DNA of 13,036 nucleotides from Bacteriovoracales bacterium (GTDB taxonomy: Bacteria > Bdellovibrionota > Bacteriovoracia > Bacteriovoracales > Bacteriovoracaceae), in assembly GCA_007117175.1 (NCBI GenBank), contig SKGZ01000255.1:1-13036 (forward strand). Reading direction: 5' to 3'. Below the pieces are notes generated by a model. It saw only the letters and a list, made by a program, of their open reading frames with translations, searched no databases and was not told where the DNA came from. Positions 1-12,886 of the stretch are shown here, in pieces (position 1 is the stretch's first letter; each line of letters opens with the position of its first letter). The translations under genes and the position numbers were made by a program.

Positions 1-2513
1 GGGCCGATGAAGCTTACTATATCCTCGGTTTCAATGAAAAAGAACAAGGTAGAGAGAAATCAGCTCTTTCTTATTTCCAAAAAGCAGAGACTAAAGCTAA
101 GCCTAATTCAGAGTCACAAATTAGAATCCATAATGCTCTTGCAGAGCTTTATTACAATAAAAGGGATTATAAAAGAGCAATTTACTATTACGAAAAAAAC
201 CTAAAAATGATTAAAGATAAATGGTGGACAAAAGACGCCTATAACCTTTCTTGGTCTTATTATCGAATTAAAAACTATGAGAAGGCAATTCGGTTAATGA
301 AGAGGGTGAATGAGCTAAGTCAAAAACCACAGTATGTAGATATGAGTCATCTCGGAAAGCAAGATATTGGCTTATTTTATGCTGAGTCTGGTAAGGTTCG
401 GGAGGGTCTTCGATATTTTAAATCCCAGGGAAGAGATTTTACGCTCGAGTTATTAGCACTTGGTGCTTTACTGGCCGATCAGGGTAAATATCCACAGGCG
501 CTGAATGCCTATAATCAAGCTTTGCAATATGAGAAGGATCCACAGAACTTAGTTAAGCTCCATCTTGCTCGAATTGATCTCTATGATCGTTATGACAAAT
601 TTAACTTGCATCTTAAAGACAGCCAAAAGCTAACAACCCCTGAATTGCGATCTGCAATGACTGCGGATCAAAGACAAATGTATCTTTTTCAAGTGAATAA
701 GCAGGTAGGAAAACTGCAAAAGAGACTTACAGAAAAAGGTTATAAGGACACGCAGAATCTACGGGAATATTATGCAGGAATGACTAATGACTTTCTTAAT
801 ATTGCTATTTTAATCGATCCAAGCAAGTCAGTAGAGTATTATTTTTATCAAGCAGAGACAAGCTTTCAGGCGCGCCAGTATGAATTAGCAACTCAACAGT
901 ATGTTAAGTCTTATGATCTAGCTGATCAGGAAAATAATCAAAAGATACGCAAGCTTTCAGCTGAGGGAATCCTCGCTGCATTAGGGCAAAGTCCAAAGGC
1001 ATTCCCTACACAAGATAAATATTTAGTGGATGGTTACACCCGTTATCTTAAAGTTGATTCAACATCGAAACAAGCTCTTGAAGTTTATAAAAGACTTTAT
1101 AAGTATCACTTAGAGAAAGAGAATACAGCAGGTATGGAGGCGACCCTCAATGGTTTTGTGGTCGCTTTTCCCCAAAATCAAACTGAACAAGGTCAAATGT
1201 TAAGTTCCCTAGTCCAGCTATACTCAAAAGCAGGTAAAGATGAAAGATTGCTTAATCTTTTCAAAGGAATACGTTCAGGACAGTATAATTTATCAGAAAA
1301 GACAAAGAAAGATCTCAACGCAATCTATCAGAAGTTTGAAATTGAAAATATTGAAAACTTACTCAAGGCAGGAAAAATAGACCAAGCAAGAGAGGGCTAT
1401 CTTGTCATTTGGAATGATCAGTCCAATGATGAAATCACTAGGGCTAATGCAGCTTATAATCTGATGGTGATTAGTTATAAAGAATATCAGACAAAAGAGA
1501 CCTACGACTGGGGTTTAAAGGCCGTGCAGCTTATGGATGGCAAGGAGCTTCGTCAATTAAGAGATTCATTTCAGGGGATTTCACGTTTTCTATTTGAAAG
1601 AATGCAGTTTAGTGCATCTGCAGATCTAGCTCATAGAGTTTTTGCCAAGGGTTGTCAGTTGGGCGGGCTCGTGAGTGATAATTTATATAGAAATGCCTCT
1701 ACTGGGTATCGTGCTGCTAATAATACTGATCGTTTAAAAAATTTGTACGATTTATCACATCGTTGTAAAATCAGTCTAAGTGTTAAGAATGAAGCATTGA
1801 TAAACCTGTTGTACTCTTATCGTGATGAAAAAAGGTATAGAGACCTTAGTGAATTATTAGAGCTAGTCAAAGATAATAGGCAAATAGCCTCGGAACTTAT
1901 ATTACACGCCTCATATTTATCCCAATACTATGAAGAGAGTGCCAGGGTGAGTGAGCAAAAAAAATGGTCAAGCTATGCCATAGCTACTTATGAACAATTT
2001 GAGAAAAATAAGGCCAAAGGTAGTGAGCTAACTACAGCAGCACTTGATGCCCTTGCGATTCTCAAGTCAGAGCAAATTCAAAAAATTTATGCTCAATATC
2101 AAAAAATGCAATTAAAATTTCCAGAAAATGTTTTCAATTCAACTTTAGAGAGAAAAATTAACTGGTTAGATCGAATACAGAATGAAGCAATTCAATTAAA
2201 AGATCTTGGTTCAGGTCAAGGAATTTTGCTTTCTTTTCAATACTTAGTGACAGCATATTCTGATCTTGTCTGGGAGTTAAAAACATTTACTCCCCCAGGA
2301 AAATCAGAAGATTATGTAAAGAGTTTTAAAGCATCAATGCAGCAAATTATTTTACCTTTACAGCAAAAAATAGGCGAATTTGAAAGTCAAGGTCAAGATA
2401 TTATTAATCGCAATAAAATAATGGCAACCCATGATCCTGAACTTACGCCAATTACAGGCAATCACTTCCATGAATTTCATTTGCTACAGTCCCATAGAAG
2501 TGGAGGGTTTTAA
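1..2513 (+). CDS. gltD: Large TPR-repeat protein, GltD/AgmU-like (5' partial)
   Basis: The frame is open from the left edge (first whole codon at 3) to TAA at 2511-2513, so at least 836 residues are present and the true start lies outside the window. The first in-frame ATG, at 207, falls in the middle of a tetratricopeptide repeat and is not the start. Repeats of the A-x-x-x-L-G-x-x-Y / A-x-x-x-Y-x-x-A-L type are clear at about 9-100, 110-205, 230-300, 345-430 and 440-530, and more degenerate helical repeats continue to about 2350. No catalytic motif is visible. TPR arrays act as protein-protein scaffolds. The neighbours (TPR lipoprotein, small secreted protein, FHA-TonB protein) match the order in which M. 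xanthus GltD (AgmU, a large TPR gliding protein, roughly 1200 residues from memory) precedes gltE, gltF and gltG. The name rests on synteny plus architecture. It is unrelated to glutamate synthase gltD. Confidence 0.65.
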   Translation, partial: ADEAYYILGFNEKEQGREKSALSYFQKAETKAKPNSESQIRIHNALAELYYNKRDYKRAIYYYEKNLKMIKDKWWTKDAYNLSWSYYRIKNYEKAIRLMKRVNELSQKPQYVDMSHLGKQDIGLFYAESGKVREGLRYFKSQGRDFTLELLALGALLADQGKYPQALNAYNQALQYEKDPQNLVKLHLARIDLYDRYDKFNLHLKDSQKLTTPELRSAMTADQRQMYLFQVNKQVGKLQKRLTEKGYKDTQNLREYYAGMTNDFLNIAILIDPSKSVEYYFYQAETSFQARQYELATQQYVKSYDLADQENNQKIRKLSAEGILAALGQSPKAFPTQDKYLVDGYTRYLKVDSTSKQALEVYKRLYKYHLEKENTAGMEATLNGFVVAFPQNQTEQGQMLSSLVQLYSKAGKDERLLNLFKGIRSGQYNLSEKTKKDLNAIYQKFEIENIENLLKAGKIDQAREGYLVIWNDQSNDEITRANAAYNLMVISYKEYQTKETYDWGLKAVQLMDGKELRQLRDSFQGISRFLFERMQFSASADLAHRVFAKGCQLGGLVSDNLYRNASTGYRAANNTDRLKNLYDLSHRCKISLSVKNEALINLLYSYRDEKRYRDLSELLELVKDNRQIASELILHASYLSQYYEESARVSEQKKWSSYAIATYEQFEKNKAKGSELTTAALDALAILKSEQIQKIYAQYQKMQLKFPENVFNSTLERKINWLDRIQNEAIQLKDLGSGQGILLSFQYLVTAYSDLVWELKTFTPPGKSEDYVKSFKASMQQIILPLQQKIGEFESQGQDIINRNKIMATHDPELTPITGNHFHEFHLLQSHRSGGF
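2502..2507 (+). promoter_or_regulatory. Ribosome binding site deciding the gltE-like start
   Basis: GGAGGG ends 7 nt before ATG 2515. It lies inside the last codons of the upstream TPR gene, whose TAA is separated from this ATG by one base. It selects 2515 over the upstream in-frame ATG at 2431, which would place 28 extra residues before a good lipoprotein signal peptide. Confidence 0.8.
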
Positions 2514-2514
2514 G

Positions 2515-3351
2515 ATGAAATTATTAGTTTTTGTCGGTTTATTGATGATGGCTTCATGTGCAAGTTCCCCTCGTCAAAAAGACACTTCGGTACTGCCAGA
2601 GGTTAAGTATCAAGCCAAATCAGATTACTTTGCATCTAAGGCTGATTTTGCTATTGGCAGAGAAACGCTAGAGTTAGATTTATCTGTAAATGTTGGATCC
2701 GATCAGCTGGCCCTCATCATTAAGCAGTGTCACTCGGGAGATTTTGCCAAAGCCTATGACCTGAGTGGTGAGCTCTATCCGCAGTATAAGAATCACCCTG
2801 GTTATTGGAATGCTGTCGGGGTCTGTTTCTGGCAGAAAGGTGAAGTCTTCAGGGCAAAGCAATTTTTTAGCATAGCTCTGGAGAAACAGCATCGTTACTT
2901 TCCTGCTCTGAATAATTTGGCCATTATCTCTGTCAATGATAAAGATTGGGATCAGGCAAGAGCGCTGCTTGAGGAGGCACATAAAATAGAGCAACGCTCT
3001 CAAGTGGTTAACTATAACTTAGGTAGACTTTATTTGGCATTTGGGCACTACTCAAATGCTTTAACACATCTTAACTTATTACGTGATTCTGACTTTAAAA
3101 AATCAAAAGCAAATCTGTATATGGGAATAGCTCAGATGGGAGTTAAGCGATATCAGCAAGCACTAGAATTAATCAAACCTTTCTACTTGTCTGATAAGAA
3201 AAAAGATTATCTGAAGGTTTACTATGCATTGACGCTTTTAGAGACGGATCAAAAAAGTGAAGCGAGAAAGGTTATTTCTGACCTGCAAATTGATAGAAGA
3301 AATTCATTGTTTTCATATTACCAAAGATTAAAGAGAGGTTTAGATGAGTAG
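2515..3351 (+). CDS. gltE: TPR lipoprotein, GltE/AglT-like
   Basis: The 278-residue product starts with a lipoprotein signal peptide: K2, a hydrophobic stretch, then a lipobox M-A-S-C with the lipidated Cys at 15. Ala, not Asp, at +2 is compatible with outer-membrane sorting under the E. coli Lol rule. At least three TPR units follow at about residues 94-127, 128-161 and 162-194, with a weaker one at 200-230. In M. xanthus, GltE (AglT) is a TPR lipoprotein of the Glt gliding complex, encoded between gltD and gltF, and this gene sits in the same slot. The start is one base after the preceding stop, and the TAG overlaps the next gene by 8 nt, so the three are almost certainly co-transcribed. 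Lipid anchoring and TPRs are read from sequence; the gliding-complex role is inferred from order and architecture. A generic TPR lipoprotein is the alternative. Confidence 0.65.
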   Translation: MKLLVFVGLLMMASCASSPRQKDTSVLPEVKYQAKSDYFASKADFAIGRETLELDLSVNVGSDQLALIIKQCHSGDFAKAYDLSGELYPQYKNHPGYWNAVGVCFWQKGEVFRAKQFFSIALEKQHRYFPALNNLAIISVNDKDWDQARALLEEAHKIEQRSQVVNYNLGRLYLAFGHYSNALTHLNLLRDSDFKKSKANLYMGIAQMGVKRYQQALELIKPFYLSDKKKDYLKVYYALTLLETDQKSEARKVISDLQIDRRNSLFSYYQRLKRGLDE

Positions 3352-3601
3352 GTTGTTAATGATTTGTATGCTGATAATGTTCAGTAGTCATCTTTATTCA
3401 CAGAAACCTAAAAAGAATGTCCAATATAAATATAAAAAATTTGAGCGTTTCGATTTTGAGGCAATGAGAGTTGATAGTGGCGGGGCTACCCCGGGAGATC
3501 TGTCGATTAATCCAAGATTTAATGTAGAGTTTAGAAATAAATTACCCCATAAGCCCAATTTTAATTCAGAGCTTATGGATAGTGTGGAGTGGTTACAATG
3601 A
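3344..3601 (+). CDS. gltF: Small exported protein in the GltF position
   Basis: The product is 85 residues. The N-terminus has Arg 3 and a hydrophobic run through about residue 16, then a likely signal peptidase I site after the S-x-L-Y-S segment near residue 19, leaving a basic mature protein of about 65 residues. It has no Cys lipobox, no second membrane segment and no domain I recognise. An AAGAGAGG Shine-Dalgarno lies 5 nt before the ATG. The start overlaps the upstream lipoprotein gene by 8 nt, and the stop overlaps the next start as ATGA. Export, start and coupling are well supported. The symbol is positional only: in M. xanthus a gene of unknown biochemical function, gltF, sits between gltE and gltG. 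I could not verify sequence similarity to it. Confidence 0.5.
   Translation: MSRLLMICMLIMFSSHLYSQKPKKNVQYKYKKFERFDFEAMRVDSGGATPGDLSINPRFNVEFRNKLPHKPNFNSELMDSVEWLQ
3586..3589 (+). promoter_or_regulatory. Ribosome binding site deciding the gltG-like start
   Basis: GGAG lies 8 nt before ATG 3598, which overlaps the preceding TGA as ATGA (3598-3601). An in-frame GTG at 3589 would start inside this Shine-Dalgarno and is therefore disfavoured. Confidence 0.7.
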
Positions 3602-5553
3602 TTTCAAGTGATAGGACTAAAACTGGGACAAGATTACAATTAACATCAAGTGATGCTAAGACAAAGATTTGGTCGAAGCCTCTACGTCAAGGGAGGTATC
3701 TTATTGGAAGTAGCGAAGCATGTGATGTCTTTATCATGGACTCTAGTATTGCACCAATCCATTGCGTTATCGAAATTTTTCACGGTGAGGTTGTGCTCTA
3801 TAATCTTGACCTTAAGATAGGATCTAAAGTTAATAATGAAAAAATTATTACCAAGCAGTTAAGGCTCAATGATGTTATTAGTCTTGGGAATGTAAACCTC
3901 GTCTTAGACTATTGGAAGGACCGTGATGATAGTCCAGTCTTACCTCCAGATGCTCCAATGTCTAGCACTAAGGAGTTTACTGGCCATATTAGAAATCAAC
4001 CATTTGAGAAAATAGAAAGTAGTGATGAACCAAGAATTATTTATCCATTCAATGTTAATTATAACTTTGATACCAGTGAGTATATTTTCGAAGAGACAGA
4101 AAAATTGTATCCTGTTTTTCGCTATGGCAAAATTAAGACTTCTGTAGAAGTTATTATTATCTTTAAAAATAGAATTTTATCAGTCGATTATATTACAACA
4201 CAAAATGGAACTTACAAGCTTGCAGGTGTTGGTAAAAATAAAGATCAAATTGAGTTTGCTTATCTTCCCAAAAGTGACAATGTAGAGTTCTTAGAAGTTA
4301 AAAATAATGAATATTTTATTCATAATCTTTATGACTTTAATGTTAAGGTCTTCTCTAAGGATCAAGAAAAAAATAAAGCCAAACTCATCAATCTGTTGGA
4401 TGGTGAAATAGTTAATTTTACTAAAGGTGATCTTTCTATTGTAATTAGAAATGTGGAGTCACCTCCCCAAGTGTTAATTCCACCTGTTCTTCCAAGAGAT
4501 AAAAGTGTTCTATGGCTAGCTTTTATGGCCTTTTTATTTGTTTCAATTCCCATGTATTTTTTATCGAAGCGTGAAATCGATCAAGATGAGTTAAGTAAAT
4601 TGAAGGCGCCAGAAAGAGTGGCGACTATTCTTTACAATAGACCGAAAATGAAGGAGCCAGTCAAGCCATCTAAGCCTAAACCTAAACCTGAGCAAAAGCC
4701 ACCACAGCCTAAAGTAGAAAAAGTTCAGGAGAAAAAAGAAGCACCTAAGAAAATAGCAGATCAAACAGTTAAAAAGCGACCTCCTGAAAAAACTCCTCAA
4801 AAGGGCTCTCCGCCAAAGGCACAGCAGACAAAGGCAGCTGCACCTTCCCAGCAAAAAACAGCGGCTCAGTCAAAAACTAATAGACCATCGGCAACACCAT
4901 CAAAGTCTAAGTCAAGGCCTTCGGCAACTGCTTCCCCGACTCCAACTAGTAAGGGAACAGTTGATGTCTATAAGTCTAACCAGTTTGCATCTTCAGTTAG
5001 TTCTCTTGTGGCAAGAGGAGGACAGGTTCAATCGGCGCAAACTAAAAGTGTGAGTGGTGGAACACCAGGTGCAAGCGCGGCTTCTCCTGGAGTTGCAGGC
5101 AGTGCTGGTGTGAAAAGTGCAACAGTTTCTGATCGAATAGGCGACCGGACTGGGGCGTTACAAGGAGCCCAAGATTTTTCCAGTGGTGCCAAAGGACTTG
5201 TCACAGGAAAAGGTTTTCATACTGCCGGTATCCCATCAGAGACAGTCATTCTAGGATCAATGGACCCAGATCTTATTCGTAAGATACTAAGAGATCACCT
5301 CCCTCAATTTAGATTTTGTTATCAAAAAGAGCTTGACCGTAGTGGCCAGAATTTTTCTGGTGCACTCAGAGTTGTCTTCACCATAGGTGCTTCAGGTAAT
5401 GTGACTAATGCTGGAGTTGATGGTGCCTCTACTCTTCCTGCGCCAGTTCGTGGTTGTGTCATCAATGTGTTAAGAGGGATCCAATTTCCCAGACCTGCAG
5501 GCGGTGGTGTGGTAGAAGTAAAACAACCAATTAATTTTTATCCTAAACAATAA
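3598..5553 (+). CDS. gltG: FHA - transmembrane - AgmX/PglI (TonB-like) protein, GltG-like
   Basis: The product is 651 residues. A cytoplasmic FHA-type domain spans about residues 10-105 (GRYLIGSS at 32-39, H55, VNN near 78). A second folded region follows, then one membrane helix at 304-322 followed by Lys-Arg. A Lys/Pro-rich stretch (about 350-410) and a Ser/Thr/Ala/Gly-rich linker (about 410-545) form a long extended periplasmic arm. The C-terminus (about 549-651) is an AgmX/PglI-type TonB-like domain, with F-C-Y-Q (C574), a G-x-V strand motif, C620 and a final V-K-Q-P-I-N-F. This is the known architecture of M. xanthus GltG (PglI), an inner-membrane Glt protein proposed to reach through the periplasm. 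Canonical phosphothreonine-binding residues of the FHA domain appear replaced. It is the last gene of the block; the stop overlaps the converging acyltransferase gene by 11 bp. Confidence 0.75.
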   Translation: MISSDRTKTGTRLQLTSSDAKTKIWSKPLRQGRYLIGSSEACDVFIMDSSIAPIHCVIEIFHGEVVLYNLDLKIGSKVNNEKIITKQLRLNDVISLGNVNLVLDYWKDRDDSPVLPPDAPMSSTKEFTGHIRNQPFEKIESSDEPRIIYPFNVNYNFDTSEYIFEETEKLYPVFRYGKIKTSVEVIIIFKNRILSVDYITTQNGTYKLAGVGKNKDQIEFAYLPKSDNVEFLEVKNNEYFIHNLYDFNVKVFSKDQEKNKAKLINLLDGEIVNFTKGDLSIVIRNVESPPQVLIPPVLPRDKSVLWLAFMAFLFVSIPMYFLSKREIDQDELSKLKAPERVATILYNRPKMKEPVKPSKPKPKPEQKPPQPKVEKVQEKKEAPKKIADQTVKKRPPEKTPQKGSPPKAQQTKAAAPSQQKTAAQSKTNRPSATPSKSKSRPSATASPTPTSKGTVDVYKSNQFASSVSSLVARGGQVQSAQTKSVSGGTPGASAASPGVAGSAGVKSATVSDRIGDRTGALQGAQDFSSGAKGLVTGKGFHTAGIPSETVILGSMDPDLIRKILRDHLPQFRFCYQKELDRSGQNFSGALRVVFTIGASGNVTNAGVDGASTLPAPVRGCVINVLRGIQFPRPAGGGVVEVKQPINFYPKQ

Positions 5554-6556
5554 GTGACCTTTGCTCATGAATTGCCATTGAAAGTACAATTGGCTTTTCT
5601 TTTTGTTGAGCTAGGAAACTTTTCTTGTCTTTCCATGGTCCATCATTGAGTTCAATTAATGATCGAGCCACTGCTCCTGCAGTGTAGCTACCAGGGCCTG
5701 TTAGGATGAAAACATCTGGGGCAAATTCTCTATAGCATTTTTGTATGGCCAGACTAAAATAATAAGTGCTAATCACTTGGTTAAAGGTTGTATAGTGATA
5801 GAATTCTTCAATCGTAGTTGAATGTGGTGACCAGATTTTTCCTCGACCATCAATTAAGGGAATTTGAGGTGCTTTAAAGACTTGGCAAGAGATTATTTCT
5901 TGTGCTTTATGAGCAGCATCTTGTAATAATGGTGTGTGAAAGGCTGAGTTTCCTGGCAAAATTTGTGGGTAGATATCTCTAGCAGGTAGCTTCTTCATTA
6001 AAATATTAAGTGATTCTTTTTTTCCTGCTAAAATATAGAACCCTCCATAATCAATAGATAGAAATATTTTACTATCATCAATTTTTTCATTTACAAGTTG
6101 TTTGATTTCATAATCAACAATCCAATCTTGATTAGTAATAGGATAGATCAGTTGGCCACCGATGGGATTATTGGTTATTGAGGCCATCGTCTCAATGAAC
6201 TCAAAGGCATGTTGATCTTCTAGGGCCCCCGCTGCATGGCAGGCTAAGTACCACCCCATGGAATTTCCTGTAATGGCAACTATTTCATAATTTTCTTGGT
6301 TGATATTGAGATAATCGAGGTAACTGCAGCAGTGAATGAGTGCAGCAGAATTTGGTCCGTGATAGTGTATATTCCTTTGAAAGACATTCGCTCCATCTAA
6401 CTCTGTTATGGTAGGATTATTATTTTGAACTTTATATTGATCATAATCATTGAGAAAGGGATGATCTTTATAATGGGATTGAATCACCCCTAGCTCTGAT
6501 TTATTATAGCTTCCTCTACCTGGAAAGATTACGACTGCTCTTTTTTTTCTGCTCAC
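5543..6556 (-). CDS. FabD-like acyltransferase (malonyl-transacylase superfamily)
   Basis: The 337-residue product has the fold signatures of ACP S-malonyltransferase/AT domains: PGRGS at 12-16 (usual PGQGSQ), the nucleophile elbow G-N-S-M-G at 97-101 with Ser99 (usual GHSxG), the catalytic His in A-F-H-T-P-L (His217), and a C-terminal G-P-G-S-Y-T-A-G at 297-304. By ungapped alignment from memory with FabD, the Arg that clamps the malonyl carboxylate (E. coli R117) falls on Met124, and the Glu after the elbow is Trp102. The family moves acyl groups from CoA to a carrier protein; a missing Arg argues for a non-carboxylated acyl substrate. The GTG start at 6556 overlaps the upstream TGA as GTGA, behind a weak GAGAG at 6566-6570, so translation probably depends on coupling to the E1 gene. 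The carrier and acyl group are unknown. It is probably not the housekeeping FabD. Confidence 0.75.
   Translation of the reverse strand: MSRKKRAVVIFPGRGSYNKSELGVIQSHYKDHPFLNDYDQYKVQNNNPTITELDGANVFQRNIHYHGPNSAALIHCCSYLDYLNINQENYEIVAITGNSMGWYLACHAAGALEDQHAFEFIETMASITNNPIGGQLIYPITNQDWIVDYEIKQLVNEKIDDSKIFLSIDYGGFYILAGKKESLNILMKKLPARDIYPQILPGNSAFHTPLLQDAAHKAQEIISCQVFKAPQIPLIDGRGKIWSPHSTTIEEFYHYTTFNQVISTYYFSLAIQKCYREFAPDVFILTGPGSYTAGAVARSLIELNDGPWKDKKSFLAQQKEKPIVLSMAIHEQRSLIV
5574..5605 (+). terminator. Candidate Rho-independent terminator after the glt-like block
   Basis: GCCATTG (5574-5580) pairs with CAATTGGC (5587-5594) with one bulged T, giving seven base pairs around the loop AAAGTA. TTTTCTTTTT (5595-5604) follows directly. 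It begins 21 bp after the gltG-like stop in the right orientation. It lies inside the 3' coding region of the opposite-strand gene, so codon constraints could have produced it by chance. Confidence 0.45.
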
Positions 6557-8715
6557 GGTGATATTCTCTCTATAATTTCATCAGTCGAAACTAACAATTT
6601 TTTGGCGCTTGGCCCTAAACTGATAAATGAGTCAGCACTGCAAAGAGTTGTGACTGTTGATTGTGGGCAAGCTGATGCTATAACCCGATAGAGCTCATCG
6701 GCGAGTGCTGCCTTTTCACGACATTCATCCACGATTAGAATTTTTTTATACTTCTGTGCAATTTCAACTAGTTTTTCTTGTTGGTAGCAATTAAGCCAGC
6801 GTAAATCAATGACATCGATCTTAATGCCTCTTTCATTTAATTTTTCTTGAGCTTGTCGACTTAAGTAAAGGCCATTGCCATAAGTGATAATGAGTTGGTC
6901 ACTGGCCTTAGAGTGACTATAAACCTTTATTTGACCTAGCTGAATTTCTTCTTGATTATACTCAAACAACCATTTCTCATCTTTTTCATCAAGTAAGTCT
7001 TTTTTATGATAAAGAGCAATTGGTTCTATGAAAAAGCAAATCCTTCCTTGTTTGGCTTGTTCCACACAGGTTTTTAACATGGCGCTGGCATCCTTGGCAT
7101 TGGAAGGACAGGCAATAATGACAGCTGGTATATCCCTAAAGACACTTAAGGTATTGTCGTTGTGAAAATGCCCCCCCAGACCTTCTTGGTAGGCTAGCCC
7201 AGGTATCCGTATCACAATTCCATTTTGAAATTGCCCCTGCGAAAAAAAGCTAAGAGTACTTGCTTCACCTCTAATTTGATCTTGAGCATTATGATAATAA
7301 GCGAGAAATTGAATTTCACAAATTGGTAAAAAACCATTGAGACTCATTCCTATCCCCGTACCTAAAATTGTGGTCTCATCTAAGGGAGCATTCATCACTC
7401 TGGCAGGTCCGAATTTTTTAAAAAGACCACTAGTAATATTATAGACTCCACCTTTTTTTCCAATATCTAGGCCAATCAGACAGGCTTGTGGATTTTTTCC
7501 TAATATCTCATGTAGCGACTGATTAAGTGATTGGGCCAAAGTGTATTGTTCTCGAGGATTAGGGTGTTGGTAATTATTTAAATTGTGTTTAACTAAGTTG
7601 ACAGCGGGCTTTTTAAAATTTGGAATAAGGCTTGCCATAATTTCATTTCTACTTTGCAACTTGGGCTGTTTGATCGCCTTTTCATAAATTGATAAAATTT
7701 GCTGATCAATTCTATCTAAAATAGAGACTAGCTCTTGCTTGGTCACTGCTTTGGAATTGATGAGCCATTGAGATAACTGAATGATGGGGTCTTTTGCAAG
7801 GTCATTGAGGATATCACTTTTTTTTCGATAGAGATCTTCTCGATCATTACCAGCATGTCCATACAGGCGTACCATCTTAAGGTGGAGGAAAACAGGCCTC
7901 TTGTTTTTTCTGCTAAAATGATAGGCATTCACAATGCATTGATAAGCAAGATTAAGGTCTGTAAAGTCTACGTAAAAATATTTGATATGAGGATCTTTTC
8001 CTCGCATCTGCTCATTAATCCATCCCTGAGTTGTTTTTTGACTGATTCCTATTTCATTGTCTTCACAAACAAACACTATTGGGGTTGGTACCTTATTATA
8101 GCTAAGCCAGTGAGCACAGTTAATTGCGGTCAGGGCAGTGGCATGATTGAGTGTAGCATCCCCGAAATGGCAAGTGACAACACTGTCATAGGGAAGGTAA
8201 CTTACCAATTTTAGATCTTTGCTTCTTGGTATAGAAAGAGCACTGCCGACAGCCTTTGGAAGATGAGATGCAATTGTTGATGTTTGCGGAGGCATAAAAA
8301 GCTTAGCATTGCCTAAGACTTTGTGCCGTCCACCGGAGATTTGATCAGACTTAGAGACAACAAAAGAATGAATAAGATCAAAGAGCGGATTGCATTCATG
8401 AACTTTCAATGCTCTCTGTAGGTAAAAACTAGCATCTCGATAATGGGCATAACATAAATCATTGTATCGACTAGCCTTACCGACTAGGCTCATCATCTCA
8501 TGGCCTGCTGATGAGATAGTGTAAAATGTTTGATCTCTTGTTTTATAGACTCGACTATACAGATCGGCAATGCGGCTGCTAATCTGTGTCTCCAGAATCT
8601 CTACCCAGTCCTTGGCAGGAAGGATTTTTTCATCTATGAACTCATCTTGGGTTAGCTGTAGTTTACGCAGCCTATTGTGGAAATCTTGATGAATTTCTTG
8701 TGCGCTAAGATACAT
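6553..8715 (-). CDS. Fused alpha/beta E1 subunit of a branched-chain-type 2-oxoacid dehydrogenase
   Basis: The 720-residue product is a thiamine-diphosphate enzyme joining both E1 subunits. The alpha half (about 30-330) has S-A-G-H-E at 69-73, G-G-R at 128-130, the TPP/Mg motif from G-D-A (185-187) to E-D-N (218-220), and a phosphorylation-loop-like R-L-Y-G-H...D...Y-R (283-297). The beta half has the transketolase pyrimidine-binding domain (about 390-575) with P-L-D-E (Glu447) and G-G-H-F-H (514-518), then a transketolase C domain (about 590-710) with D-L-R-W-L. GDA in place of GDG is, from memory, usual in the fused E1 group. The reaction would be decarboxylation of a 2-oxoacid and transfer of the acyl group to E2 lipoyl. 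No E2 or E3 gene is in the window. The start is supported by AGGTG at 8724-8728, 8 nt upstream, and lies 3 nt after the preceding stop. The substrate (branched-chain or pyruvate) cannot be fixed from sequence alone. Confidence 0.85.
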   Translation of the reverse strand: MYLSAQEIHQDFHNRLRKLQLTQDEFIDEKILPAKDWVEILETQISSRIADLYSRVYKTRDQTFYTISSAGHEMMSLVGKASRYNDLCYAHYRDASFYLQRALKVHECNPLFDLIHSFVVSKSDQISGGRHKVLGNAKLFMPPQTSTIASHLPKAVGSALSIPRSKDLKLVSYLPYDSVVTCHFGDATLNHATALTAINCAHWLSYNKVPTPIVFVCEDNEIGISQKTTQGWINEQMRGKDPHIKYFYVDFTDLNLAYQCIVNAYHFSRKNKRPVFLHLKMVRLYGHAGNDREDLYRKKSDILNDLAKDPIIQLSQWLINSKAVTKQELVSILDRIDQQILSIYEKAIKQPKLQSRNEIMASLIPNFKKPAVNLVKHNLNNYQHPNPREQYTLAQSLNQSLHEILGKNPQACLIGLDIGKKGGVYNITSGLFKKFGPARVMNAPLDETTILGTGIGMSLNGFLPICEIQFLAYYHNAQDQIRGEASTLSFFSQGQFQNGIVIRIPGLAYQEGLGGHFHNDNTLSVFRDIPAVIIACPSNAKDASAMLKTCVEQAKQGRICFFIEPIALYHKKDLLDEKDEKWLFEYNQEEIQLGQIKVYSHSKASDQLIITYGNGLYLSRQAQEKLNERGIKIDVIDLRWLNCYQQEKLVEIAQKYKKILIVDECREKAALADELYRVIASACPQSTVTTLCSADSFISLGPSAKKLLVSTDEIIERISP

Positions 8716-8718
8716 ATA

Positions 8719-10371
8719 TTAATCACCTAGTTTTAGATATTTTAAGTGATTATTGATGAGATCACTAGGCTGATAGTTCTTGAGTTGAGGGTGAGTTAAA
8801 ACTTGGATAGTGGAGTAATAGAGAGGAACCCACGGGAGGTCATTAAAGACAATTTTTTGGACAGTTCTTAGCTGCTGTTCAATCTTTTCAGCTTCTAGAT
8901 TTTCAAAAATGAGATCAAATTGCTGGTTATGATAATAAGTTGCATTGACTCCCGGAGGATGGTTTTTCGAATAGAGCAATTGCAGTGTGTTTTCTGGATC
9001 AGGGTAATCTAATGTCCAGCCATCTAACCATATTTGTAGATTTCCCTTTCTAGCTTTTTCTAAAAAGTGAGAAAAACGATTAAGGTGAATTTTGACTTTA
9101 ACTCCCACTTTTTCCAGTGCTGATTGTATGAATTCTGCAAATTGTCTAGCTGTTGTATCATTAGATCGTAGGTCAAAGTTGACTTCGAGTGGTTTCTCAT
9201 GATTAAAGCCAGCTTGATTTAATAAGCTGATGGCCTTCTCGGGAGAGTATTGAACTGAGAAGTCCTCTTTGTGCCCAATAATTGAAGGGGGAAAAATAGA
9301 ATTCGCTAGAACTCCACTATTTTGAGTGAATATTTTTAATATTTTCTCCCGGTCAAGGGCATGGGCAATTGCTTTTCTAATTTTTAAATTACTTCCAAGC
9401 AGGGAATCTTCCATATTGAAAGAGATCCACCAATAAGTGAGTGAGTTTGTTTGATGTAATTGAATTCCCTTTTGATTCAATTCTTCTCGAAGAGACCCAT
9501 CTTCATTCAAGGCAAGTGGTATTTGATCTTTTCCCAAGCCTGTCATGTGCAATTTATTGGACAGAAAATTAAGCCAACGAGTTTGTGATTGTTCCATAAT
9601 AGAGTAGTGAACTTTTTCTATTGCCGGCAATGGTCGGTAGTTCTGATTTCTTTTGAGAGTAAGAGAGGATGTTAAATCATGGTGATCAAGCTGATAGGGA
9701 CCTGTGCCAAAGATAAGTTTTTGGAAATTATTATCATTACTCTTGCAAATAGATGGTGGAATAGGAGCTGTAAATGTCATTGCCAATGCATAAATGAGCT
9801 GGGGGTAGGGTTCAGTGAGTTCAATTTGTAGCTGATAATCATTGATGGCCTTAAGGCCTTCTATGTCTGTGGTGTAGATCTTTTCGAGCTCTTGCCCCAC
9901 TTCTTTCCTGAAATGATTAATGCCTTTAATCTTTCCATCAAATAACCACCAGCCATTGCTCTGATTGGATTGAAAGGCAATACGTTTAAACTGATGGATA
10001 AAGTCATGGGCGGTGACATATTCTAAGTATTCTTTGGAATGGTATTTAATACCTTTGCGTATGTTGATAGTATATTTTTTTTGGTTCGCGCTTATGACAG
10101 GCATAGCCTCAGCTAGCAATGGTTCAATTCGATAAGGCCGATCAGTGTAATGATATTGATAGAGTGTCTCGTAAATATTGCCTAAGATATTTAATGAGAT
10201 AGAGTCATAGGCATCAACAGGGTCCAGAGATGGTACCTTGTCTGTAATTGCTAGCCTGAGTATATCCTGTGATTTTTCTTGGCTACAGGAAGCGAGCAAT
10301 GAAAAAAACAATGTGAGTCTAGTTAAAAAATTCAATGAGTTTTTTTTGAAAATCTTTAAATTTTTGAGCAT
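8719..10371 (-). CDS. Oligopeptide ABC transporter substrate-binding lipoprotein (SBP family 5)
   Basis: The 550-residue product has a basic n-region, a hydrophobic core and a lipobox L-A-S-C with the lipid Cys at 29. SBP_bac_5 signatures follow: P-S-L-D-P near 47-51, N-I-Y-E-T-L near 65-70, a Y-T-I-N-I-R-K-G-I-K-Y-H segment near 90-101 with A-H-D-F behind it, and D-G-W-T-L-D-Y-P-D-P in the C-terminal third. Family members (OppA/DppA) bind peptides, and a few bind other solutes. The length is normal. The start at 10371 was chosen for its AAGGA 7 nt upstream and its complete signal peptide; it overlaps the alaS 3' end by 53 nt. An in-frame ATG at 10419 would add 16 poorly signal-like residues. 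No permease or ATPase gene lies nearby, so its transporter must be encoded elsewhere. The ligand cannot be read from the sequence. Confidence 0.88.
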   Translation of the reverse strand: MLKNLKIFKKNSLNFLTRLTLFFSLLASCSQEKSQDILRLAITDKVPSLDPVDAYDSISLNILGNIYETLYQYHYTDRPYRIEPLLAEAMPVISANQKKYTINIRKGIKYHSKEYLEYVTAHDFIHQFKRIAFQSNQSNGWWLFDGKIKGINHFRKEVGQELEKIYTTDIEGLKAINDYQLQIELTEPYPQLIYALAMTFTAPIPPSICKSNDNNFQKLIFGTGPYQLDHHDLTSSLTLKRNQNYRPLPAIEKVHYSIMEQSQTRWLNFLSNKLHMTGLGKDQIPLALNEDGSLREELNQKGIQLHQTNSLTYWWISFNMEDSLLGSNLKIRKAIAHALDREKILKIFTQNSGVLANSIFPPSIIGHKEDFSVQYSPEKAISLLNQAGFNHEKPLEVNFDLRSNDTTARQFAEFIQSALEKVGVKVKIHLNRFSHFLEKARKGNLQIWLDGWTLDYPDPENTLQLLYSKNHPPGVNATYYHNQQFDLIFENLEAEKIEQQLRTVQKIVFNDLPWVPLYYSTIQVLTHPQLKNYQPSDLINNHLKYLKLGD

Positions 10372-12886
10372 TAGCTGATCCTTGAACCATATCGGGCTTT
10401 CCTCCCCCCTTACAGTCAAAATCTGCAGGGAGCCGAGAAAGGAATTCTTTAAAATTGTTATTATTTTTTTTATGAGTTCTGATTAAAAAGGAAAAACGAT
10501 CATCGATTTTTTGGCAAATGAAAATGACATCATTGCCATGCTTATCAATAAACTTATCCGACAATGTTCGAAACTCCTTGGCAGGAACCTTATCTAATAC
10601 AGTAAAAATCTTTTGATTGTTTCTCAGCTCTTTAAATTCAGAAAAGAGCTCTTGGCTACTTTGAGATTGAATTTTATCCTTGAGTTTTTCAACTTCTTTA
10701 TTTTTTCTTTTGAGCTCTGATTGCATTTGCTCAATTTTTTCATGTAATTGGTTTGATTTCGCAGCTAAAGTTGCTTCCAGTGAGCTAATCAATTGGAATT
10801 GTTCTTGATAGTGTCTGAGCGCCATCTCTGAGGTGATGGCTTCAATTCGTCGAACTCCTGAGGCCAAGGATCCTTCTGTTAAAATCTTAAAGAGATGAAT
10901 CTGTGAGGTTTGATCAACATGGGTTCCCCCGCATAGCTCCTGCGAAAATTGATCCATAGAAATGACTCTAACGGTTTCACCGTATTTTTCTCCAAACAGT
11001 GCTGTCGCGCCCATTTTTAGCGCCTGCTCCTTGGTGGTTTCCATGGAATTGACTTTGAGATTATCTTGAATGGCACGATTCACAATTTTTTCAATTTTCT
11101 CAATTTCATTATGAGTCAACGCTTTATTGTGGGTAAAGTCAAAGCGCAGTCTATCTGGTCCAACCAGCGAGCCAGCTTGTTTGATATGAGCTCCCAGTGT
11201 CTGAATAAGTGCCGCTTGCAGAAGATGTGTGGCACTGTGGTTTTTCTTAATTCTCTCTCTGCGTTGAGTGTCAATGCTAATTTGATAATCTTTTCCAGCT
11301 TTTAGACCCTTGGCGTCCCTAGTGAGATGAATAAAAAGATCATCAATCACTTTGATAGTGTTATGAATGTGAACTTGTTCACCCTCAACGTTTCCACTAT
11401 CTCCAACTTGACCGCCTGACTCCGCATAAAAAGGAGTTTTGTCAAAAATTAATGCGACTTCATTGGCCAGAGGCTCTATGGCGATCAGCTTTGCCTTAAG
11501 AGTTGTTATTGTATACCCTTGAAAGTCTGTCGCTCCATATTGTTCACGAATAGGGTAGAGTTTTTCAAAGTCTTTTTCTTTAACTTGAAATTGTTTTTGA
11601 CTGCGAGATTGTTCTTTTTGTCTCTCCATAGCCTTATCAAATTCATCTTGATTCAACTGAATATTTTTTTCAGCTAAGAGTGTTTGAGTCAGGTCTAAAG
11701 GAAACCCATAGGTATCATAAAGTTTAAAAGCGATCTCTCCGGAAAAAGTCTTACCCTGATTGGCAGCTATTTCTTCATCGAGTATTTGTAGGCCCTTATG
11801 CAAGGTCTCTCTAAATTTTTGTTCTTCCTCTTGAGTGAGCTTAACAGCTAGTTCTAGATTTTTTTGATTCTCTGTGTATTGATCTTGAAGAGTCTCCATC
11901 ACAGCTGGCAAGATAAGGTGTAAAGAAGTTTGCCCGACTTTAAGTTCATTGAGGTGGCGAACAGCACGTCTGATAATTCTGCGCAGCACATAGCCTCGCC
12001 CTTCATTGCTAGGAATCACACCATCGGTCATCAGCATAGTCATGGCACGGGTATGATCTGCAATCACTCTCATAGAAGTCTGGTGATTTTGATATTTTTT
12101 CTTAGAGATTTTTTCTATTTTGGCGATAATTGGTTTAAAAAGATCTGTATCATAATTCCAATATTGTCCTTGCATAGCGGCACTTAAGCGCTCAAGCCCA
12201 CTTCCAGTATCAACGCAGGGAGTGGGTAGATTGACTCTGGTTCCATCTGCTCTCTTTTCATATTGCATGAAAACAAGATTCCATATTTCAACGTATCTTC
12301 TTTCATCTAAGATAATAGGGTCATATTTTCTCTGGTCTTGGTATTGCTCCCCATGATCATAGAAAATTTCACTGCAGGGGCCACAGGGGCCAATTTCTCC
12401 CATTTCCCAAAAATTATCCTTATCTCCAAGGAAAAAAATTTTCTCTTTGGAAACTCCAATATGTTTTTCCCAAATCAGTGCAGCCTCTTGATCGCTATGA
12501 TGAACAGTCACTAATAAGCGAGAAGCTGGAATTTTTAATGTTTCTGTTAAAAATTTCCAAGCGAACTCAATGGCCTCTTTCTTAAAGTAACTACCAAAAG
12601 AGAAATTGCCTAGCATTTCAAAGAATGTATGATGGCGAGGCGTGAATCCAACATTCTCCAGATCATTATGTTTTCCACCAGCGCGCACACATTTTTGAAT
12701 ACTGACTGCACTTTGGTAGGGAGCGTTTCTCTTGCCAGTAAAAAAATCTTTAAATTGATTCATTCCGGCATTGGCAAAAAGTAGAGTGGGGTCATCTTCT
12801 GGGATGAGACTAGAGGATTCAACAATACTGTGTTGATGTTTCTTGAAAAAGTTAAGAAACTCCTTACGAATTTGCGCTGATTTCAT
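10319..12886 (-). CDS. alaS: Alanine--tRNA ligase
   Basis: The 855-residue cytoplasmic enzyme attaches alanine to tRNA-Ala and clears Ser/Gly mischarging; the length is close to E. coli AlaRS (876). The N-terminal class II catalytic core shows the usual R-K-E-F-L-x-F-F opening, the A-N-A-G-M segment, R-A-G-G-K-H-N-D-L-E-N-V-G, and C-V-D-T-G-S-G-L-E-R with Asp226 in the alanine pocket. The editing domain carries the zinc ligands HxxxH (550-554) and CxxxH (652-656), so editing should be intact. A coiled coil (about 700-755) and a C-Ala/DHHA1 domain with the G-G-G-K-P-D-M-V-Q-G-S signature close the protein. The start has AGGAGG four bases upstream. It follows a probable recX by 28 nt, the recX-alaS order known from many bacteria. 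The 3' end contains the start and RBS of the next gene. Confidence 0.97.
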   Translation of the reverse strand: MKSAQIRKEFLNFFKKHQHSIVESSSLIPEDDPTLLFANAGMNQFKDFFTGKRNAPYQSAVSIQKCVRAGGKHNDLENVGFTPRHHTFFEMLGNFSFGSYFKKEAIEFAWKFLTETLKIPASRLLVTVHHSDQEAALIWEKHIGVSKEKIFFLGDKDNFWEMGEIGPCGPCSEIFYDHGEQYQDQRKYDPIILDERRYVEIWNLVFMQYEKRADGTRVNLPTPCVDTGSGLERLSAAMQGQYWNYDTDLFKPIIAKIEKISKKKYQNHQTSMRVIADHTRAMTMLMTDGVIPSNEGRGYVLRRIIRRAVRHLNELKVGQTSLHLILPAVMETLQDQYTENQKNLELAVKLTQEEEQKFRETLHKGLQILDEEIAANQGKTFSGEIAFKLYDTYGFPLDLTQTLLAEKNIQLNQDEFDKAMERQKEQSRSQKQFQVKEKDFEKLYPIREQYGATDFQGYTITTLKAKLIAIEPLANEVALIFDKTPFYAESGGQVGDSGNVEGEQVHIHNTIKVIDDLFIHLTRDAKGLKAGKDYQISIDTQRRERIKKNHSATHLLQAALIQTLGAHIKQAGSLVGPDRLRFDFTHNKALTHNEIEKIEKIVNRAIQDNLKVNSMETTKEQALKMGATALFGEKYGETVRVISMDQFSQELCGGTHVDQTSQIHLFKILTEGSLASGVRRIEAITSEMALRHYQEQFQLISSLEATLAAKSNQLHEKIEQMQSELKRKNKEVEKLKDKIQSQSSQELFSEFKELRNNQKIFTVLDKVPAKEFRTLSDKFIDKHGNDVIFICQKIDDRFSFLIRTHKKNNNNFKEFLSRLPADFDCKGGGKPDMVQGSANAQKFKDFQKKLIEFFN
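10379..10383 (-). promoter_or_regulatory. Ribosome binding site deciding the SBP lipoprotein start
   Basis: AAGGA on the minus strand lies 7 nt before the ATG at 10371-10369 and within the last codons of alaS. It is the reason for preferring this start over the longer reading from 10419. Confidence 0.7.

Follow-up and report, generated by a model that had tools for sequence, protein, structure and literature searches.

A conserved gltD-E-F-G block in a Bacteriovoracaceae genome and MIDAS-type lipoprotein genes among its sister cassettes

Results

The gltD1-E1-F1-G1 operon

Here we present an analysis of a Glt-type gene block in a 13,036-nucleotide stretch of DNA (hereafter the window), which is the entire contig SKGZ01000255.1 (C196 in our numbering) of assembly GCA_007117175.1, a Bacteriovoracaceae-like metagenome-assembled genome (MAG) of 1.86 Mb in 301 contigs, 85.4% complete. 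Four plus-strand open reading frames (ORFs) at 3-5553 form one operon, encoding in order a TPR protein, a TPR lipoprotein, an 85-residue exported protein and a protein consisting of an FHA domain, a transmembrane (TM) segment, a proline-rich stretch and an AgmX tail. The first two genes lie 1 base apart, the second and third overlap by 8 bases and the third and fourth by 4 bases. An initial annotation, made from the letters alone, had seen four coupled ORFs with these architectures, arranged in the D-E-F-G order of Myxococcus xanthus. Both observations held: Pfam gives TPR and FHA/YscD-like matches, the AgmX tail is above its cut-off, and the GltG profile matches the fourth gene at E 2.5e-25.

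The first gene, gltD1 (3..2513, plus strand), encodes a large TPR protein (Pfam TPR) of which 836 of about 955 residues are present; it is open at the left edge of the window and, since the window is a complete contig, no sequence can be read beyond that edge. The TPR lipoprotein gene gltE1 (2515..3351, plus strand) is assigned from Pfam TPR matches, a lipobox recognised by eye and its position in 52 syntenic loci. Its start is best placed at 2515 (GGAGGG directly before it; MKLLVFVGLLMMASC, with the lipobox MASC by eye) rather than at 2431, the mechanical start of a longer frame. Against the GltE model NF033758 it scores 29.2 bits (E 4e-7, cut-off 225). The cglF-like gene gltF1 (3344..3601, plus strand) encodes an 85-residue exported protein with a weak CglF profile match and five homologues besides itself (44-70% identity); the GltF of a relative (L051) reaches 27.3 bits with the CglF model, whose cut-off is 90. 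Because these profile matches are weak, the GltE and GltF assignments rest mainly on synteny.

The predicted force transducer, gltG1 (3598..5553, plus strand), is assigned from Pfam, NCBIfam and homologues. Its start is best set at the ATG at 3598, which overlaps the preceding stop codon as ATGA, the listed GTG (3589) lying three codons upstream. The protein comprises an FHA/YscD-type cytoplasmic domain (3679..3909, plus strand; PF16697 1e-11, PF00498 1e-9), a conserved middle region, a single TM segment (4504..4566, plus strand; a hydrophobic stretch, by eye), a proline-rich linker and an AgmX/PglI, TonB-like C-terminal domain (5260..5538, plus strand), which scores 64.7-68.3 bits with NF033768, above the cut-off of 40. 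A profile of the gltG family hits FHA chains in the PDB; the FHA domain of gltG1 lacks the usual Arg. The whole protein scores 89.1 bits with the GltG model NF033760 (equivalog cut-off 650). The middle region, between FHA and TM (4030-4482, residues about 145-295), holds more invariant columns than the FHA domain and looks FHA-like by eye. Among the core-machine traits present are the GltG architecture and GltD as a large exported TPR protein. A defence role for the block was also considered and rejected, PADLOC giving no match for GltG or GltE.

Remaining parts of the set elsewhere in the genome

The core of the M. xanthus machine, as given by Luciano 2011 (PMC3169522), consists of gltC, gltD, gltE and gltG together with aglR, aglQ and aglS. 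The initial annotation had counted the lack of GltE and GltG matches, combined with the lack of any other glt or agl gene, against itself; it survives this rule, as GltG matches its profile, GltE does so weakly and behind other TPR families, and equivalents of gltC, of the outer-membrane protein (OMP) gene and of aglRQS were found on other contigs. On contig C227 lie OMP1, which exceeds the cut-off of OMP_myx_plus, gltC1, scoring 117.8 bits with the GltC model, and the beginning of gltD (82 residues), with the N-terminal signal peptide by eye. This GltD piece matches residues 16-95 of the GltD of a close relative (L071) and the piece in the window matches residues 131-961 (41% identity), so that about 35 GltD residues lie between the contigs. 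The motor genes are on C290, in the order trxA-gmhA-aglR-Q-S; the AglR encoded there and the L071 protein share 66% identity. All parts of the set are therefore present, and it is the gltG-aglS linkage that has been lost.

The membrane Asp is kept in both AglQ1 and AglS1 (six AglQ and six AglS sequences aligned). In M. xanthus, the AglQ substitution D28N is published as paralysing the machine. We also observed that the AglQ proteins of the set containing Bd1480 (L236 16843-17400) and of contig C255 of the source assembly (L006 5617-6171) lack this Asp, all six AglS keeping it; judged from the alignment, these two motors may have only one subunit with an ion-path Asp.

Across the assembly, the GltC model matches C227 and C123 (109.5 bits), both below its cut-off of 450, and the OMP_myx_plus cut-off is passed on C123, C227 and C166, the barrels being left unassigned between GltA and GltB. 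MotA_ExbB has ten matches, three of them in AglR-Q-S sets (C290, C70 and C255).

Conservation of the block in relatives

The block is a normal, conserved one in relatives of bacteria-hunting bacteria. Besides itself, gltG1 has 65 homologues, most with 35-53% identity over at least 95% of the length, and the named ones belong to the Halobacteriovoraceae and Bacteriovoracaceae. Matches at E <= 0.001 occur in 37 of 39 genomes (the source included), many covering only the FHA domain or the tail, and a near full-length match (E <= 1e-94) occurs in 17 of 24 other genomes of the same family. By automatic calls, 52 of 97 loci (L051-L147; some genomes entering twice, some loci of other types, and gltF sometimes hidden by an opposite ORF) have x-x-gltD-gltE-gltF-gltG without interruption, the first two genes being read as OMP and gltC from their position; a family search confirmed both in L071.

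We refer to sets of this kind as type-1. Among 77 named loci, 73 were retained as type-1, the four dropped being one in which gltG is hidden (L094), one of type-2 (L141) and two of TonB type (L144 and L146). Nine of the 73 are too short downstream of gltG for a count of motor linkage; in the other 64, which have at least 6 kb downstream, aglRQS lies within 10 kb after gltG in 59. The aglR/S genes are convergent in 54 of the 64, co-directional in five and absent from that interval in five. The single-locus order in relatives is accordingly OMP-gltC-gltD-E-F-G followed by aglS-Q-R or aglR-Q-S, and the five co-directional loci include the closest relatives of the window (L071, L072 and L082). The initial annotation was correct that gltH, gltI and gltJ do not follow gltG directly, and because the usual genes at that place are aglS-Q-R, this is normal in the lineage. 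None of GltH, GltI, GltJ and GltK is encoded in the window; no whole-genome search with their models was made, and the MAG is 85% complete.

Further neighbours conserved in relatives (by eye) are gmhA and trxA, then a gene for an RDD protein and polA, and also helicase genes. The large gene after aglR in relatives is, by its sequence, polA and not alaS.

On the minus strand of the window, convergent to gltG1, lies a compact operon (5543-12886) which occupies the place of aglRQS in relatives, with alaS, a family-5 solute-binding lipoprotein gene, a fused E1 alpha/beta thiamine-dependent dehydrogenase gene and a FabD-like gene (Pfam, NCBIfam). The FabD-like gene (5543..6556, minus strand) starts the stretch that holds aglS-Q-R in relatives and is outside the machine. 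The window yielded no match to Rfam families and no tRNA.

Phylogenetic placement

Trees were midpoint-drawn and included no Myxococcus sequence. In a GltG tree of 55 rows, with a warning for several long branches, type-1 sets, including that of the window, are split from a second kind (type-2, described below) by a branch with 99/99 support, and an AglR-only tree, in which the C290 AglR falls in type-1, gives the type-1/type-2 grouping at 89/91. A motor tree of AglR, AglQ and AglS (549 columns, 46 sets) places types 1 and 2, C290, C70 and the Bd1480-type sets together at 100/100, and the Bd0828-type, type-3 and other Bdellovibrionales sets together at 99.7/100. With the myxobacterial models, the Bd0828-type set scores 234 (GltG), 188 (GltC), 46 (GltE) and 46 bits (CglF), as compared with 89, 118 (C227), 29 and 19 bits for the window set; Bd1480-type GltG reaches 145 bits.

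Other Glt-type sets in the source genome

The genome contains at least four Glt-type sets and three AgmX-tail proteins above cut-off. Set 1 is made up of C227, the window and C290. Set 2, joined by gene order in relatives, consists of C123 (a gene for a lipoprotein of the metal-ion-dependent adhesion site, or MIDAS, type, then OMP2 and gltC2) and C151 (gltD2-E2-G2); its motor was not found in the genome. Set 3 is C70 (aglR-Q-S-gltD), closest to a relative, G003 (L224). Joining C70 to C151 as a single cassette was rejected: the GltD piece on one overlaps that on the other when both are set against relatives' GltD, and they are therefore two sets. Set 4, on C255, has aglR-Q-S, an 89-residue exported protein and a TM-AgmX protein without FHA, which the GltJ model matches through the tail only. 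GYF_2 matches occur on C4, C254 and C197, none in an AgmX-tail protein, and so no GltJ as known was found.

The MIDAS-type candidates in this genome are the C123 protein, a C255 protein with a weak match (23.4 bits, cut-off 27) to the von Willebrand factor A (VWA) family and a C4 protein with the DxSxS motif only. None of the three is linked to the window set; CglB itself was not searched for. A search with the Arf family model for MglA returned three matches, in frames of 343-872 residues and none of MglA size, which is uninformative, the fit of that model to MglA not being established.

Several side observations concern these contigs. The C255 set (L006 3401-10629) has a third-type motor and adjoining divergent lipoprotein genes with weak VWA, TSP3, MtsD and CglD matches. 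On C4 (L256 24-2274), a lipoprotein-like gene with a DNSFS (MIDAS-like) motif and no Pfam match is directly followed by a GYF-GYF-PilZ gene; a pair of MIDAS and GYF-PilZ genes likewise occurs in G092 (L241 7908-9748) and, joined to aglRQS, in L236. Stray genes encode a protein with an N-terminal GYF-like domain and a TM segment by eye (C197; L259 2-1135), a GltC-like protein (C107; L162 3-2021) and a barrel (C166; L161 3-620). These are probably parts of other sets, C107 perhaps of the C255 set.

MIDAS-type lipoprotein genes in sister cassettes

Type-2 cassettes typically have the order MIDAS-OMP-gltC-gltF-aglR-Q-S-gltD-E-G. A MIDAS-type gene is present in 13 of the 14 type-2 cassettes fetched on a GltG match, the exception being G019. 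Five of the 13 proteins served to build the MIDAS profile, which leaves eight as independent; the DxSxS motif is found in 12 of the 13, the thirteenth (L221) being split over two ORFs. With the NCBIfam MIDAS-adhesin model, the L061 protein scores 76.6 bits and the C123 protein of the source genome 53.3 bits, both far below the cut-off of 700.

The gene is also present in three further loci (L212, L213 and L235), chosen partly on MIDAS or GltC matches, in all three type-3 loci (L226-L228) and, in families f6, f11 and f18, in 9 of 11 sets not of Bd0828 type (absent from L254 and L255). These last sets were fetched on GltC matches and are covered far enough for the count; L248 and L252 end before the place concerned, and six GltC matches were left out. 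One partial set (L200) has no MIDAS gene, the Bd0828-type sets have it in none of three (L242, L214 and L066), and the 73 type-1 loci, in stretches of 3.4 to 22 kb, contain no match to the MIDAS-adhesin profiles. Most cassette-linked proteins score best with the type-2 profile, and all 16 MIDAS proteins from loci without a Glt gene score best with a Bd0875-type profile, among them the Bd0875 orthologue itself. From this split, the cassette-linked proteins may form a branch of their own.

Discussion

A probable force-transmitting half of a surface machine

The window set is a Glt-type set that is real and conserved, complete although dispersed in the genome, and it is best read as the transmitting half of a surface machine driven by protons. 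More specifically, we give a probability of about 0.72 to the reading that the block encodes that half of an Agl/Glt-type machine which spans the envelope and transmits force, the machine moving or clamping attachments at the cell surface so that the cell glides over surfaces and prey. In the proposed mechanism, the AglR1-Q1-S1 proton channel would drive GltG1 in the inner membrane; AglR is published as binding GltG in a two-hybrid assay. GltG1 would span into the periplasm via its proline-rich linker and AgmX tail and pull or push on GltD1, GltC1 and GltF1, and through the lipoprotein GltE1 the force would reach the outer-membrane barrel OMP1. The work done would most likely be to move or clamp surface attachments, permitting gliding over surfaces and on prey. 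Gene content, homology, the synteny kept in relatives and the membrane Asp of AglQ1 and AglS1 are observed; assembly of the parts into one complex, coupling to the C290 motor and gliding itself are predicted on this model.

Several points weigh against this reading. No NCBIfam equivalog cut-off is reached by the window set, gltE1 scores higher with three other TPR families (PrsT 68, PilW 39.9, MamA 38.9) and gltF1 scores only 18.6 bits with CglF (NF033764, E 0.0015); of the profile checks put forward by the initial annotation, that of GltG is clear and those of GltE and GltF are not. The genes after gltG1 are those from the FabD-like gene to alaS instead of the motor, and the motor-gltG linkage is broken. 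The type-1 motor groups with the Bd1480 type and not on the Bd0828-0838 branch (100/100; tree without Myxococcus), and it is Bd0828-0838 that Luciano 2011 (PMC3169522) names as the best gliding candidate, closest to aglRQS, among four expanded sets in Bdellovibrio described as being without GltH-K. The suggestion of a proton-motive-force-linked envelope machine in a predator is partly supported, as to the machine by homology, layout and kinship to Bacteriovoracaceae and Halobacteriovoraceae; gliding or predation by the source organism is extrapolated, and the motor groups with those of Bd1480 type.

Published mutant phenotypes count in favour of the reading, but they concern other sets, namely Bd0828-0838 and Bd1473-1483. 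Insertions in Bd1481 (aglR) and Bd1483 (a "putative protein in gliding motility cluster") are reported to lower predation on biofilms and to leave halo formation on thin prey lawns intact (PMC2277423, 2008). For B. bacteriovorus, an insertion mutant in aglS (Bd0838) is listed as lacking attachment, killing and rounding activity (PMC6561027, 2019). Bd1482, a PilZ protein, has been proposed as a receiver for gliding control (PMC3271064, 2012), and the gliding-cluster genes bd3099 (vWA) and bd1480 (aglQ) are given as surface-induced and lower in Bd0367 mutants (Lowry 2022).

Known paralogues also do other work: Glt and the Nfs spore-coat complex share architectures, with Agl driving both in M. 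xanthus. It is accordingly conceivable, if unlikely, that the window set moves a surface polymer or outer-membrane component, such as coat or slime, rather than the cell. The lack of a MIDAS-adhesin match in all type-1 loci and the conserved neighbour gmhA, an LPS-heptose gene named by eye, would suit such a role, to which the other conserved neighbours (trxA, the RDD protein gene, polA and the helicase genes) give no pointer. Somewhat less probable still is a role apart from movement, as a TonB/Tol-like energiser for uptake at the outer membrane or for its stability, for which one might cite the TonB-like tail and the term tonB-like/agl operons, used by Lambert 2010 for four Bdellovibrio operons of differing regulation, Bd0412-0420 being predation-induced. 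Other ExbB/TolQ/MotA-type genes must exist in this genome, since only three of the ten MotA_ExbB matches fall in AglR-Q-S sets, and a Pfam scan found a receptor-type protein among none of the eight window proteins. To our knowledge, moreover, GltC, GltD, GltE and GltF with an OMP_myx_plus barrel do not occur in Ton or Tol systems.

The separation of motor and block in a small genome (1.86 Mb, 85% complete) could also mark a decaying remnant, the gltG-aglS link broken here being kept in 59 of 64 related loci. It is missing from the other five as well, however. The frames of gltE1, gltF1 and gltG1 are open, and so are the readable parts of gltD1; C290 has an intact aglRQS1 and C227 an intact OMP1 and gltC1, making decay very improbable.

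A possible division into adhesin-bearing and adhesin-less machines

The adhesin-like gene in some sister blocks could be the machine's grip. We tentatively propose, at slightly under even odds, that the Glt-type machines of Bdellovibrionota fall into classes, one with its own MIDAS/vWA surface lipoprotein, a functional counterpart of CglB that would serve as the motor's grip on prey or surface, and one without an adhesin gene. The adhesin-bearing class would comprise type-2, type-3, Bd1473-1483 and two other operons that, by their position in G069, we liken to Bd0412-0420 and Bd2368-2377. Type-1 and Bd0828-0838 would form the adhesin-less class, which would borrow an adhesin or do other work.

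Against this division, only 1 of 10 further sets of mixed type has a MIDAS match, a divergent one of 32 bits (L230); these ten were fetched on GltG matches, are neither type 1, 2 or 3 nor Bd0828-type, and are in some cases cut by contig ends. Among loci fetched on MIDAS matches, 16 of 18 have no Glt gene, the two that do being L212 and L213. Bd0875, a MIDAS adhesin needed for invasion, does not stand beside a Glt set: the best MIDAS match of G069 is some 47 kb away from gltC, and its 17-kb surroundings are free of Glt genes. Pfam VWA models score below their cut-offs on the MIDAS-type proteins, and the C123 protein had no match when its sequence was searched against the PDB.

Each half of the MIDAS-Glt link is already in print for Bd1483. 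The order MIDAS, GYF/PilZ, AglR, AglQ in L236 agrees with the printed Bd1483, Bd1482 (PilZ), Bd1481 (aglR) and Bd1480 (aglQ), and a 2024 study (PMC11003981), which does not use the term Glt, describes Bd0875 and Bd1483 as MIDAS proteins, with a predation defect in the Bd0875 deletion and none in the Bd1483 deletion. A general statement of the link was not found in the literature searched. If it were true, Bd1483 and similar MIDAS adhesins would belong to focal-adhesion machines driven by a motor, and the free-standing Bd0875 type would be their relatives.

The comparison that starts from the window set, itself of known type, thus found its better lead in the paralogues. It yields candidates linked in one and the same cassette, sorts the sets by whether they bear an adhesin gene and connects one branch of the MIDAS-adhesin family with motor genes, which makes the adhesin-motor question in Bdellovibrio testable.

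Comparison with known systems

The window set resembles the M. xanthus Agl-Glt system (clusters G1, G2 and M1; PMC3169522) in its gltD-E-F-G order and architectures and in the presence of gltC, barrel and aglRQS-type genes in the genome. It differs in that the locus is without gltH-K, that its profile scores fall far below the equivalog cut-offs and that in relatives the OMP gene and gltC directly precede gltD in one operon. With Bd1473-1483 of Bdellovibrio bacteriovorus (L236) it shares the side of the 100/100 branch on which the motor lies, a GltG with an AgmX tail, an OMP and GltC; that set differs in having a MIDAS protein (Bd1483) and a GYF-PilZ protein (Bd1482), possibly a cyclic-dinucleotide switch, before aglR, type-1 loci having no MIDAS gene, and in the lost Asp of its AglQ. 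Bd0828-0838 (L242), with gltC-D-E-F-G-aglR-Q-S in one direction and no adhesin gene in 19 kb, has the layout of the closest relatives of the window; its motor and GltG branch outside types 1 and 2, and the set is nearer to the myxobacterial models, as the GltG scores cited above illustrate. Finally, the M. xanthus Nfs complex is a paralogue composed of the same kinds of protein, and is distinguished by its function in the spore coat and by its use of the gliding motor.

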